Positions 2,557 to 40,635 of a stretch of 64,000 nt of DNA are shown piece by piece. The DNA is from Heliocidaris erythrogramma. Its lineage: Eukaryota; Echinodermata; Echinoidea; Camarodonta; Echinometridae. The stretch's first letter is position 1. Every line of letters starts with the position of its first letter. The notes beneath the pieces are model-generated. The model was not told where the DNA came from and did no database searches. It was given only the letters and a program-made list of their open reading frames with translations. The position numbers and the translations under genes are program-made. The stretch lies in contig CM046867.1 of the NCBI GenBank assembly GCA_025617745.1, positions 32,056,628 to 32,120,627 on the forward strand. Direction: 5' to 3'.

Positions 2557-2765
2557 TTGCTTCTTTTTGCCTTTCATTTTAACATCTTGTTCGACTATTA
2601 TAACATAAGCAATCACAAACCACGTAATAAACTGCCTTATTTTGAGTGTTATGTCGATTAGAAAGTAGTGTGCAGTGGTTTATGTATAACCCTATGGAAA
2701 ATCTGATTCCCTGACGTGTATTAAACTATCCTGCAATATCATTAGTCCTCTTTGATATCACAATT

Positions 2766-3200
2766 TCTCAAAATGATAATGATGTTGATGATAATCATGA
2801 TGATGATCATGATTATCATCAACATCATTATCATCATCACTGTCACGATATTCATGATGATGATTATCCTCAACATCATTATCATCATCACTGTCATGAT
2901 ATTCATGATGATGCTGATGATTATCATCAACTTCATTATCATCACTGTCATGATGATATTCATGATGATGATGATGATGATGATTATCAACATCATCATC
3001 AGCACTGTCATGATATAATGATCATCATCATGATTATCTTCAACATCATTATCATCATCACTGTCATGATGATATTCATGATGATGATGATGATATAATA
3101 TCATCACCGTCATGATCATCATTGCTATTATTATTGTCATCACCATCATTATATCACCTTCATCATGATAATCATCACCATTATCATGATTGTTATCTTG
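2766..3200. repeat. ATCATG/CATCAT minisatellite, copy 1
   Basis: Long stretch of ATG/CAT/ATT triplets with a higher-order unit of about 60 bases containing CATCACTGTCATGATATTCATGATG-type words (shown here only as a description). The six-frame readings are strings of Met, Ile and Asn or His and Asp and are artefacts of the repeat. It can fold on itself, since GATGAT and ATCATC blocks alternate. Confidence 0.85.
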
Positions 3201-4624
3201 CACAAATATTATCACATCTTCCAATGACCGTTCCACACCTTTTCTGCATTCCTGTCCTCAAGAAGCATCTCCATGCGTGGCATTCTTGACTTCCTATCTT
3301 CAGTTTAGTATTTCCCCATTATTATGATCATCCTGATTACAATGATGATCATACCAATTGAAAGACAGACCACCTAATTCGTCCTCATGACGAATTAAAT
3401 TCTAGTTTTTATTATTTCTTCTTTTTATTACAAATTGTTGTTCCCACCAAATCTCAAAATCGGCCATGTCAATGTCATCGCGTTTCATGTCATGTATGAG
3501 GTCAATCATGTACATGGTCCATTAAGCTTTTGGAGGTCATCAGGTCATCGTGACGTCATCAAGACGCCATTTTGTAAATTTACAAGATCGATTATATCTT
3601 CATAATCGATCATCAAATATCAACTATATTCACATCACATAAACTTCACATGACGGGTCATCAATTCATGACCTCACAGGTCATCTAGAGGTCAGGACGT
3701 GCGCGTACGCGCGCGTCAAAATTTTAAAATGCTCAAAATAACGTAGGATCAAGTCTGCATACGTTTCAGGTCATTTTGAGCATTTCAAAATTGTCCGTGC
3801 GTAAGCGTCCGCGCGCGCGTTTTACGCGCGTGCAAGTCGTAAATAACTTTAAAGCGCTGTTTTTTTATTGATTTGCAATCCTGACACTTTTCTTCATCAT
3901 TTCCATCAACTTGGAATCAATTTCAATCAATAATATCGTCGTACGGGCGCGTCAAAGTTCAAAATCCGTGCGCGCGTCTATGGCGAAAATAACGTAAAAA
4001 CGTGCAAAAACATGCCTCTACAAAATTAACTCTAGCTCTTTAAATAGTCCATTAACCCCCAATTTTTTTTCATCATCAGGTAGGGTATGAATCATAGATA
4101 TGATTTCATGTATCATTTGACCCTTATAAACATTATGACGTCATCAAAATTGCGCCAGAATTCAAAATTTCCATTTTTCATGTTTTGACGTCATCACATT
4201 TATGCAAATTTGGCTCTCAATTCGTAATTATTGGTCGTTTTTCGTCCAGATTTTAATATGTTGTAGCTGAGGCAATTTCCTACGAAATCAGTCTCCACCA
4301 TTTTTCATTTTGATGTCGTCATCACAGTGAAACTTTCAATTAAAGATGCCATGTCGGAATTTTCCCTATTTGCGTGTTATGTCTATGGAAGATGATTTTT
4401 TTTTTAATCATGAATCTACATAACATTGTTCTCTGAGCTGTATCTCAGTTGATTTTGGTCCATTTTCTTCCAGATTTTAGTATGTTATAGCTGAGACTAT
4501 AAGCTTTTATAAGTGTGGTCTCCAATTTTTGATCAGATGTCGGGATCATCCCCAATTTTTTACTACAAAATGTGATTTGAGAATCCCGATTTCGTTTACG
4601 TGTTATCTCTATGGGAAATGTTTT

Positions 4625-4711: not shown

Positions 4712-4929
4712 GCTTCTTTTTGCCTTTCATTTTAACATCTTGTTCGACTATTATAACATAAGCAATCACAAACCACGTAATAAACTGCCTTATTTTGAGT
4801 GTTATGTCGATTAGAAAGTAGTGTGCAGTGGTTTATGTATAACCCTATGGAAAATCTGATTCCCTGACGTGTATTAAAGCTATATCCTGCAATATCATTA
4901 GTCCTATTTGATATCACAATTTCTCAAAA

Positions 4930-5360
4930 TGATAATGATGTTGATGATAATCATGATGATGATCATGATTATCATCAACATCATTATCATCATCACTGTC
5001 ACGATATTCATGATGATGATTATCCTCAACATCATTATCATCATCACTGTTATGATATTCATGATGATGCTGATGATTATCATCAACTTCATTATCATCA
5101 CTGTCATGATGATATTCATGATGATGATGATGATGATGATTATCAACATCATTATCATCAGCACTGTCATGATATAATGATCATCATCATGATTATCTTC
5201 AACATCATTATCATCATCACTGTCATGATGATATTCATGATGATGATGATGATATAATATCATCACCGTCATGATCATCATTGCTATTATTATTGTCATC
5301 ACCATCATTATATCACCTTCATCATGATAATCATCACCATTATCATGATTGTTATCTTGC
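4930..5360. repeat. ATCATG/CATCAT minisatellite, copy 2
   Basis: Copy of the minisatellite at 2766-3200, differing by single substitutions only. The higher-order structure is conserved, so copy number has not drifted since the duplication. Confidence 0.85.
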
Positions 5361-5564
5361 ACAAATATTATCACATCTTCCAATGACCGTTCCACACATT
5401 TTCTGCATTCCTGTCCTCAAGAAGCATCTCCATGCGTGGCATTCTTGACTTCCTATCTTCAGTTTAGTATTTCCCCGTTATTATGATCATCCTGATTACA
5501 ATGATGATCATACCAATTGAAAGACAGACCACCTAATTCGTCCTCATGACGAATTAAATTCTAG

Positions 5565-36761: not shown

Positions 36762-37454
36762 TTAGGTTTGATGAGGACGAATATAAAATCGTCGTATTTT
36801 GATGAGATCTTGATGCTCGAAGGTTGAATGTAAGTGGTATCCTAAGTGGACCAACACCATAGTAACGCCGCATATTCCCATATCTACCATTGGCCTGTAC
36901 ATGAGGGCTCCCTGCAGATTTTTGGCTGGCTCCAGTACTACGGACCTCTCCTTGAAGGCTTGTCCAAGTTCCCTGAGGATAAGTTCTGAGGACTCAAAGG
37001 TCCATCTGTAGATGGAGTCCAAGACCAAACCAGAGGCACTCACAAATAAGAAATCCATTTGTGTGTGCCTGATTGGAAGGAGAGGGTTGAATGTGGAGGG
37101 GCTCCTGGGCGATGGAAGACCCTGGGCAGCTCCAGTGGAGCTTGAGGATCCAGGCTGCGGAAGATCAGCGATCAAATCATAGATCTCGTAAAAAGAAGCC
37201 TCTTGAGCGAGCATTTCAAACTCCTTGTAGTCATCTGGCAGGATGACCCGTCCGGTACGCAGGTAGTTAAGAATGTGGCGGAATAGAACAGGGTCACGGT
37301 CAATGAATAAGAAACTGCCTTCTGGAGAAAGAGACGACAGCTCCCTTTCCTTTATCATGTTGGCGAGCTTTGAGAGGGGGAAACGCGTTAAAGTCTGGAA
37401 CTTTGAGGTGATGAAGCTTCCCCCAACATTCAGTGTGATTAGTCGATCATCCAT
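36762..37454 (-). CDS. BTB/POZ (KCTD-like) domain protein, single exon
   Basis: The frame encodes 230 residues. Residues about 5-95 form a BTB/POZ domain of the T1/KCTD type: ITLNVGGSFITSKFQTLTRF, then FIDRDPVLFRHILNYLRTGR, then LAQEASFYEIYDLI. These match the KCTD signatures (LNVGG, FIDRD...F..ILN.LRTG, L..EA.FY.I..L). A Ser/Pro-rich linker follows (about 100-128), then a C-terminal part (about 130-230) I do not recognise. KCTD proteins usually form oligomers through the BTB domain and often act as adaptors for cullin-3 ubiquitin ligases; that role is inferred for this one. The start ATG has A at -3 and G at +4. The gene is antisense inside intron 2 of the UPF0462 gene and has an AATAAA downstream. 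The intronless structure could be native to the family or mark an old retrocopy; the frame is intact. Confidence 0.85.
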   Translation of the reverse strand: MDDRLITLNVGGSFITSKFQTLTRFPLSKLANMIKERELSSLSPEGSFLFIDRDPVLFRHILNYLRTGRVILPDDYKEFEMLAQEASFYEIYDLIADLPQPGSSSSTGAAQGLPSPRSPSTFNPLLPIRHTQMDFLFVSASGLVLDSIYRWTFESSELILRELGQAFKERSVVLEPAKNLQGALMYRPMVDMGICGVTMVLVHLGYHLHSTFEHQDLIKIRRFYIRPHQT

Positions 37455-38419
37455 CTTGTGATTAATGCACTTGAGCTGGTTTAAAATGTATGTCTATTTT
37501 TCCATCAGTGTTAGAAATATACGTCCTAAATCATGTGGGTTTGTTGCATAGTACAATCCTGTGAAACTATTGGAACCTGGTTGGGTAAATAAAGTAGAAT
37601 TTTGCTGAATGCTTGCAAGGAATCACAGCTAACCTTTCTCTAAAACTTTGTGCAGTACATAAGAAGCTTCAAAGTGAGGTATAAATTGACTAAAAGTGTA
37701 TTTTTTTACAAGCCAGTGCACTACAGTCATAAGTTGTACTTGCATGAGTAAACAAACCATGTATCACTCATTATGATGCCAGACCAGACAATCCCAATAG
37801 CCTTTAATACACACTGTTGTACAGCGAATCCAATCGTTGTTTATCAATTTAATAACGTTGGTCAGTGAGTATAAATTACCATAATTGCTCTGTAAAAATT
37901 GTTTCAAGTCCCGCCATTGACATCTCTCTTTATCATCGTGCTATGAAGTGCTCATATTTCAGCTGCCAACTACAGGGAGCAAGGATGGATGCAAAATTGG
38001 AGTCGATCTTAGAGATGAAGTATGTTTCCGTCTTAAGTAAATCCTTGTAGCCTTGTAGCTGTACTGTAGCTATTGAATGCATATATACAGATAGATCCTG
38101 GTTCTTTGGTTAAGATACAAGACAGTTGCGAATTGCAGATATGTTGTTGAGTGACTGCTCATACTATGTGAAACCCGTTATGCTTAAGCAGCTCGTACAT
38201 AGCAGATACATTATCATATATGCCCTTGACTGTTTCACATACAGTGTACTTATTGTGAATCCACCTGAAAATCAATAACTGTGGCACAGCATCAAAATGA
38301 TTATTTCACACAGGGTCTGAACATTATGCATTAAACCATGGATAGAGTCATTCAATTATTAAACCTTAGATAGGGATATTGCATTGTCAAGCTCCATGGC
38401 AACTAACCATTTATGCCTT

Positions 38420-38443: not shown

Positions 38444-39333
38444 ACTATCATGTTGCTAATAGTCTTAACTATCAGACTGTAATATAAGCAAACAGCAAAA
38501 TTGTTAGTGATAGTAGTGAATTCAGAATTGTAGTTCGATATGTAATGACAGTTTTGGTAATATTAAGAAAACCAAGGTAGAAGAATTTCGTTTACTTGCA
38601 TGCTCTATGGCTTATTGATAAGTTTCTACCGTAATGCAGTAAAATTATGATTTTCCACAATTACCCGGTATGTATTTAGCTTTCCGGACACATCTTTTCA
38701 TGACAATACATTTTCCTAAGCTACCTTTAATAAACAATAACCTCCAGGGAATATTTCACTATATTTAGATTAATCACATATACATGTACATGTACATGTA
38801 TGGGGATTAGTGGTATATTCATACTTATTGATAGATAATAATAATAATAAGTCACCAGAAGAAAAAAAAGCAGTAAAGGGAAAAAAACAGTTGAAAGGAG
38901 TTGATTGTCAAGTTAAAATTAAAAAACATGAAATCAAACTTTTTGCTCTATTTCCAGAGAAACCAGCATGATGCAGCTCTTTGTCTTTTATAACAACAGT
39001 CATATCAGAGGCAGGCTGTTCAACATTTTCTCCCATTTCCCCCCTCATTTCATCATTACCGTCTGGCATAGTCCCAACTCAGTGCTCCAGGGAAATAAAG
39101 TCAGTGGATCCATAAAGGTACAAGGAGTCATGTGCTGTTTCCTGGATCTTTTAAAGCCACCAGTCAAGTATCCTGTCTCTTCCACACCACCAATAAGCCT
39201 GATTGTTTTCATTTGCCTGAGCAGGGGTGGACTGGATTGGGAGTTTGGGGAGTTTGGGGAGTTTTCCCCACAGGCCGCACAATATTTTGGCTCGAGGGTC
39301 TTTCAACTTGTCGTCTGAGGGGCTGGTTTATAT

Positions 39334-40392
39334 TAGCCTCTTGTCGAGGCCCTGGCGCTGTTGAAATCATTGGCGATATGGAGGCAATGGAGGCAAACCG
39401 AGGCGCTTGCGCCGAGGGCCTCTTTACACCCGACCTGAATTATATATTCATGAGGCACGATTTCCTACTGAATTATGCATGAAAACGTGAATAGTTAGAT
39501 AACCGCGGCGATCGCCCAGCAAATTGGCCAATGAAATCTCAAGGATTTCTTACTTCAGTTCTGGACTAGTCTATTATTTTTTGGGGGGATTACGTAAATC
39601 TCTTGCTCAAAATACATTCACAGACAAGCACATTATGAAGAATTCGATCTCTAGCTTACAAACCATGGTAATTTGAAATAAGACAAATGTACATATTTCT
39701 CAAGAGATCATCATATATTTACAAATAATGAAGAATTGGCAATAAAAGTCACCGTTCAACAATAGATGCATCTCCATCAATTCTGATGTAACCAAGGAGT
39801 TACCAGCAACTTCACTGCCCGGCAAGGACCCGGGGGATCCGCCTGGCCTAGGCCCTAGCATAGCTCGCGAATTCAAAGCAGCAGTCTCCCTGGCCCACGG
39901 AGGTAATCACCACAGAGCGGTAGCGCGTGAAAAATAACACTTTTTCCATAGCCAGTAGGCAGATTCACAAAAACATCTTGTCCTTTAAGTGCAGATTTGA
40001 TTGCATCAACTTGCAAATCTTTGAATCTGTCAATCTTCAACATTCTAGCGGCATATTCTAAGCTCTTACAAATATCGTCATCACTCGTCGTGGAAGAAAC
40101 GTTGAACGCCATTTTTGGGCTGCGAATAATTAATATGTAAGAAATAGCGTGCAGTCGAGTCATGAATATTTAACATTACGTCATGGTAGCTCGCGCTTAT
40201 TGGATGATTTTCACCGACCAAAATTTGGTCGGAATATTCGTCAAAACAATAAAATACAAAAGAAATTCAGATCAGGTGTCAAGAGGCCCTCGGCGCAAGC
40301 GCCTCGGTTTTTCTGGCGCGCGTCGCTCGCCAGAAATTTTGCCTCCATATCGCCAAGGATTTCAACAGCGCCAGGGCCTCGACAAGAGGCTA
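39334..40392. mobile_element. Mutator-like (Pack-MULE-like) element carrying a RecQ helicase fragment
   Basis: Exact 9-bp direct repeats GGTTTATAT flank both sides (39325-39333 and 40393-40401). The ends are TAGCCTCTTGTCGAGGCCCT and its inverted copy. Inverted repeats run about 107 bases on the left and 127 on the right; the right arm has an extra segment near 40310-40336 that is itself a palindrome (TTTCTGGCG/CGCCAGAAA). Long inverted repeats with 9-bp target duplications are typical of Mutator-like elements. The inside has no transposase but carries a RecQ-like coding segment on the minus strand. The element interrupts the older MITE at 39222-40463. Confidence 0.75.
39911..40112 (-). pseudogene. 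RecQ-type DNA helicase, N-terminal fragment within a transposon
   Basis: The minus-strand reading from the ATG at 40112 gives about 67 residues with ARMLKIDRFKDLQVDAIKSAL, then GQDVFVNLPTGYGKSVIFHA. This matches helicase motif 0 (F...Q..AI) and motif I/Walker A (LPTGYGKS) of RecQ helicases. All later motifs (DEAH, IV-VI) are missing. After Cys at the end a GTGATT could be a splice donor; otherwise the frame runs to a stop at 39873. It sits between the inverted repeats of the 39334-40392 element, so it is most likely a captured or residual first exon. No in-frame stop is present, so it may be recent. Confidence 0.7.
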
Positions 40393-40635
40393 GGTTTATA
40401 TAGGCTGAGTTGGCCGGTTACTTCAAAATTTCCTGACCGAATTTCAGTCCCAGTCTGCCCCTGAGCTTGACTATTCCAAATACCCTTCAATTTCTAATCT
40501 TGGGAAATTAGCATGATTGCAACGAGCTCATGCTAATTTGCCTTGCAGATGCAAATAGCAGGCTATTTCACTCCTGCGCTTGGGATATCAGCTTAAGCTA
40601 TTGTTCCAAACAAAGTATTGCTTGTTCGCAAAATG

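Follow-up and report, generated by a model that had tools for sequence, protein, structure and literature searches.

The element at positions 39334-40392 of the 64,000-nt stretch of the Heliocidaris erythrogramma genome analysed here (the window) is probably a non-autonomous element that arose by internal deletion from an AcademH-like cut-and-paste DNA transposon, and the RecQ-type helicase fragment inside it was most likely left over from a helicase gene that the transposon itself carried, and not captured from the host. The element is 1,059 bp long and is flanked on both sides by identical copies of a 9-bp sequence (Table 1). Its terminal inverted repeats (TIRs) are made up of an outer arm pair (39334-39387/40339-40392, 54 nt, 98% complementary) and an inner arm pair (39395-39441/40264-40310, 47 nt, 94% complementary), and the 22-base TIR tip occurs at two sites in the window, both of them ends of the element, and at none in 100 shuffles. 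The junction at which the helicase homology ends and the inner TIRs are among the most variable patches across copies of the element, and it is at this junction, after ADYLRGPG, that the reading frames of the copies part ways. Searches with Rfam gave no match anywhere in the window at gathering scores. Elsewhere in the window, an open frame on the minus strand (36762-37493), by eye a KCTD/BTB-T1-like gene, lies ~1.8 kb from the element, and two near-identical low-complexity frames on the minus strand (2742-3257 and 4904-5416), ~2.2 kb apart, represent a local duplication.

Table 1. Features of the helicase-fragment element in the window, with the evidence for each
Feature	Position	Strand	Evidence
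Target-site duplication, left copy GGTTTATAT	39325..39333		Sequence; family-wide duplications
Left TIR (54 + 47 nt arms), starts TAGCCTCTTGTCGAGG	39334..39441	+	Arm pairing, tip search
Left interior, no recognised coding content, common to the family	39442..39813	+	371-bp query search
Variable GC-rich junction, end of helicase homology; presumed internal-deletion joint	39814..39911		Copy variability
RecQ-type helicase 5' end: 67 codons, from ATG through Walker A LPTGYGKS to HALPLC	39912..40112	-	Pfam, PDB, copy searches
Presumed 5' leader, TIR to helicase ATG	40113..40263	-	Position only
Right TIR, 28 extra bases between its two arms	40264..40392	-	Arm pairing
Target-site duplication, right copy GGTTTATAT	40393..40401		Sequence

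The sole protein match of the element, on its minus strand, is MAFNVSSTTSDDDICKSLEYAARMLKIDRFKDLQVDAIKSALKGQDVFVNLPTGYGKSVIFHALPLC, the start of a RecQ-type helicase to just past the Walker A motif, and the recognisable coding content consists of the first 67-75 residues of such a helicase and nothing else. The match (MAFNV...NLPTGYGKSVIFHALPLC) is contained in a 98-aa open frame (39873-40169, minus strand) with the helicase ATG at 40110-40112; it starts inside one end of the element, 280 bp from ATG to element end, and reads inward. The Pfam DEAD profile scored 25.8 bits on the fragment (E 9.9e-6), 0.2 bits short of the cut-off of 26 bits, and the PDB matches are chains of helicase Q1 and the Bloom helicase (E 8e-5 to 1.6e-4). 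No transposase is present. An earlier note on this DNA had described exact 9-bp direct repeats, inverted repeats over 100 bases long, a RecQ N-terminal segment with LPTGYGKS as the only coding content, and the lack of a transposase, all of which hold, with the inverted repeats resolving into the two arm pairs.

Many copies of the element are found in the genome. With the whole element as DNA query, scoring of the best 40 of 909 candidate places yielded 41 near-full matches (at least 879 of 1,077 query bases covered) at 91-100% identity, including the window's own copy. With the 67-aa fragment as query, the 150 scored of 1,026 candidate places yielded 150 matches, at 97-100%, the left interior (371-bp query, 39450-39820) gave 40 matches at 99-100% identity (40 scored of 706), and the TIR alone pointed to 1,325 candidate places, 40 of which were scored. 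The totals of 909, 1,026, 1,325, and 706 are first-look places and not a true copy count, and the family perhaps comprises ~1,000 copies. Among 29 copy-bearing loci examined (L001-L023 and L063-L068), both ends were located in 25, each left end being paired with whichever partner gave the fewest mismatches; no end pair was obtained in L004, L018, L022, and L065, and the right end of L065 is absent from the DNA read. Other copies thus share the ends and duplications of the element, as the mobile family envisaged in the earlier note would: all 25 paired copies are flanked by 9-bp duplications (20 exact and five with one mismatch), representing 19 different exact sequences. Since 600 cross-pairings of the flanks produced two matches, both exact and none with one mismatch, the duplications are not a product of chance; both of the cross-pairing matches come from L013 and L014, a locally duplicated pair sharing one site. 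In one of the copy-bearing loci, on C21, a 351-bp miniature element (TAGTCTAG...CTAGACTA; L003:1151-1501) with long inverted repeats and an exact 9-bp duplication (GGCAAACCG) has inserted into the left TIR region of the window-family copy and seemingly belongs to another family of the same kind.

Whole helicases of related type are encoded in larger elements. A search of the genome with a RecQ profile, in which 37 of 828 candidate places were scored, produced 38 matches and pointed to C14 and C17, which harbour two elements of 13,043 and 12,929 bp (family A; L054+L059 and L055+L060) that are 99.5-99.6% alike, start with TAGTCC, finish with GGACTA, and have 9-bp duplications, one exact (ATTAGTATA) and one identical at 8/9 positions (TATCACCGC/TATCACCCC). 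Inward from one end they encode a two-exon RecQ helicase with DEAD (E 2.4e-12) and Helicase_C (E 1.8e-16) domains in Pfam, its ATG 724 bp (L054) or 611 bp (L055) from the element end, and inward from the other end, on the opposite strand, a protein spread over several exons, in which DUF6589 was recognised (E 1.2e-21 and 2.3e-8) and whose start resembles zf-AD below threshold. In ten open frames of the larger relatives L054, L056, and L059, none of which is a parent with TIRs identical to those of the window element, Pfam recognised helicase-type domains and DUF6589, along with zf-AD and zf-RVT below threshold, and no MULE transposase. Directly outside the family-A element on C14, a 21-bp unit is repeated in a long array (L054:3017-3857). 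Family B (L057 and L058, copies on C1 and C9, 7,263 and 6,628 bp) is bounded by TAG...CTA and by exact 9-bp duplications (GCTCCGATC and TGCTTCGCA) and contains remnants of a helicase, and the DNA read for this family and for C4 contains no match to the exons of the DUF6589 protein.

DUF6589 is not confined to these elements. In a genome search for the domain, all 64 candidates were scored and 34 matches emerged. The best of them (C1:514008-514919) is convergent with a sequence-divergent helicase (C1:520160-522302); the DUF6589-protein exons on C1 share 41-74% identity with their counterparts on C14, and no TIR or duplication was seen around this pair in the pieces read. A listed RecQ match is close to five of the 34, which fall at three places (C1, C14, and C17). 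Many of the others are single frames of 1,000-1,800 aa that have no listed RecQ neighbour, and the helicases on C6 and C4 have no nearby DUF6589 match among the 34. The facing arrangement of the two genes, at two of the three places in one bounded element, points to DUF6589 as the putative transposase of the group, and our literature search found no paper naming this domain. On C13 (9146600-9152100; L071/L072), a single 1,806-aa open frame combines DUF6589 with a TCR cysteine-rich domain according to Pfam and might be an AcademX counterpart. By eye only, the C-terminal part of this protein resembles an XPG/PIN-type nuclease; Pfam recognised no such domain and the PDB searches gave nothing relevant, and this reading was set aside.

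How the fragment relates to these helicases and to those of the host bears directly on its origin. In tblastn, it is 40-48% identical to the whole helicases of C14, C17, C6, C4, and C1 (55-69 bits), with 68-69 bits for family A, 58 for the C4 helicase, and 56 for the C1 helicase; the broken family-B pieces scored 29-39 bits, and the host-type exons 34 bits (RECQL-type) and 28 bits (a second type, whose exon begins inside the compared stretch). The host side of this comparison consists of two Walker-A exons (L024 and L025/L027/L043/L044), with types named by eye, from RecQ loci other than those on C8 and C20; drawn from these two host exons, the comparison appears to favour the transposon helicases over host RecQ as the closest kin of the fragment. 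The host counterpart that the earlier note sought at the nucleotide level did not appear: in blastn searches of L024-L062 (E up to 1), the fragment matched transposon helicases only (79% over 57 bp in L049/L026 and 81% over 36 bp in L061), the remaining hits were short A-rich stretches outside the fragment, and the host RecQ loci in this set had no DNA match inside it. That the fragment is an exon of a host gene reaching past the element was rejected, because the family that contains it is mobile, with exact duplications, and none of the host RecQ loci compared matches the fragment in DNA. A closer relative is found on C5 (L006:2870-3090), a stop-broken sister helicase start with 56% protein identity and 78% DNA identity over 55 bp that differs from the fragment by 10 silent and 2 replacement changes and is broken just past the Walker A motif by an inserted window-family copy. 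Beyond this locus (L073), a weak, stop-broken match to the DUF6589-protein exons was found (E 6e-5 in a 701-base search).

A complete parent of the family was sought with the fragment joined to a composite of the remaining exon 1, a query for which an intact parent would rank near the top and a parent broken inside exon 1 could be missed. Among the 150 places scored of 1,121, no intact parent exon was seen: the full-length matches are only those on C17, C14, C6, C4, and C1 (56-62% identity), and the other 145 listed rows end by query position 90. A parent with the ends of the window element was not found with the chimeric helicase query, the DUF6589 search, or the TIR search (40 of 1,325 scored), and the TIRs of the larger families are unlike those of the window element beyond TAG. 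A longer copy with these inverted repeats of the kind that the earlier note proposed to look for, one holding a full RecQ gene or a MULE transposase, was not recovered among the 40 scored. In both the fragment and the parent searches, a host exon ending at the end of the fragment would look like another copy.

The earlier note had proposed a Pack-MULE-like element carrying the Walker A exon of a RecQ helicase. On such a reading, a Mutator-like element would have taken up exon 1 of a host RecQ gene and multiplied afterwards. Pack-MULEs carry many different captured host genes, and the window element resembles them in having TIRs and a 9-bp duplication and in enclosing a gene fragment but no transposase. 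It differs from them in that the fragment apparently is the transposon's own gene and recurs in 150 scored places (of 1,026), so that the non-autonomous TIR element with its 9-bp duplication and RecQ fragment stands and a one-off capture does not. The 9-bp duplication and long TIRs fit MULEs and are not discriminating; the missing complete parent of this exact family would also suit a capture, as would a host exon hidden among the copies. Nevertheless, the absence of DNA matches in the host RecQ loci compared, the lower scores of the two host-type exons relative to the whole transposon helicases, the placement and orientation of the fragment like those of the helicase start of larger TIR elements, and the lack of a MULE transposase in the ten frames scanned all argue against a captured host exon, which we consider unlikely. 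The earlier note had also taken the lack of an in-frame stop as a sign of recent capture. The open frame of the window fragment does fit a young copy, as the interior of DNA-chosen copies differs from the majority sequence by 0.9% when the variable patches are left aside; capture appears unlikely, given the closer match to transposon helicases than to the two host-type exons. The note's other suggestion, that RecQ-like genes are regular cargo of the family and that the rest was deleted, comes close to our result, with the whole helicase retained in the 13-kb relatives.

Alternatively, the helicase start may have been kept for a function, with a truncated N-terminal peptide or the promoter repressing or titrating the helicase of active relatives, for which the KP product of P elements is a precedent of a truncated product acting as a repressor. 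No stop interrupts the matched 67 codons in 149 of the 150 best-scoring copies, but this figure is biased towards intact frames because the listed copies are those with the best protein scores. In DNA- and TIR-chosen loci (L001-L008 and L063-L067), with the L006 sister row excluded, replacement changes number 14 and silent ones 8, against 158:43 sites; this is below the neutral ratio yet non-significant (binomial P 0.076) and does not establish purifying selection on the fragment. The seven paired DNA-chosen copies alone have 8 replacement and 1 silent changes, whereas the 13 paired protein-chosen copies have 3, all silent, and are unusable for a selection test because their choice favours intact frames; the reference for these counts is the majority sequence of those 20 copies. 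Six of the 40 TIR-query places were additionally fetched, choosing places absent from the DNA and fragment listings, which favours poor fragments. Five of them are ~1-kb copies, with a whole fragment in L064 and L066 and a broken one in L063, L065, and L067, and with duplications that are exact in L063, L066, and L067 and have one mismatch in L064; the sixth, a 176-bp miniature, has both TIRs but lacks the fragment, and its duplication carries one mismatch. As this miniature and copies of 943 and 930 bp, in which the fragment is deleted and the duplications are exact, all bear the mark of insertion, the fragment is dispensable for movement. Overall, these sequence comparisons give no firm sign of peptide use, and retention for function appears very unlikely. 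It also seems rather unlikely that the ~1,000 truncated frames, as peptides or decoy promoters, curb the helicase-dependent transposition of relatives, or that a parentless family is mobilised by a helicase/DUF6589 pair that shares little of its TIR beyond TAG.

An origin from KolobokH or another helicase-bearing superfamily is extremely improbable. Kolobok elements have TTAA target duplications, whereas those of the window family are 9 bp of varied sequence, and the duplication length thus refutes KolobokH if the TTAA rule holds. The likeness lies in the RecQ helicase of a DNA transposon, which is described for KolobokH and for one red-algal Kolobok, with KolobokH known from fungi only (PMC9587614).

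Among the known groups, the window element is best filed as a non-autonomous AcademH-like transposon with DUF6589 as its candidate transposase. AcademH of the Academ superfamily is said, going by the title of a 2020 paper by Kojima (Mobile DNA 11:15), to comprise helicase-encoding DNA transposons of animals and fungi. Two further sources give target-site duplications of 9 or 10 bp for AcademH and 3 or 4 bp for AcademX, linked to helicase and nuclease (PMC10045372), and cite AcademH as an origin of fungal helicase domains (PMC10799480). The window family and the larger families A and B all have duplications in the AcademH range, the window element has TIRs, and the larger relatives combine RecQ helicase, TIR tips, and 9-bp duplications; the encoded helicase is present as its start in the window element and as a whole two-exon gene in the 13-kb relatives, which have different TIRs. 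The window element differs from AcademH in having the helicase start only and in lacking the Academ DDD/E transposase, the putative counterpart of which, DUF6589, is paired with a helicase at three places. No description of the window-element family was found in titles or abstract starts of the AcademH or RecQ-Academ literature.

In the AcademH-like parent, a gene for a RecQ-type helicase and one for a transposase would have been read inward from opposite ends. The whole stretch from the middle of helicase exon 1 up to and including the transposase may then have been lost in an internal deletion that brought the helicase start next to the terminal region of the other side. The shortened element would have retained the TIRs and could have been multiplied in trans by the transposase of a relative, perhaps also with its helicase, each insertion making a 9-bp duplication. 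The element thus looks like an ordinary internally deleted transposon from a little-known group of helicase-bearing transposons. What had been read as gene capture becomes a more likely self-derived deletion, and the family would represent a deletion derivative of helicase-bearing DNA transposons that has been very successful in this genome of 1.06 Gb, in which the role of the RecQ helicase in cut-and-paste transposition becomes testable.
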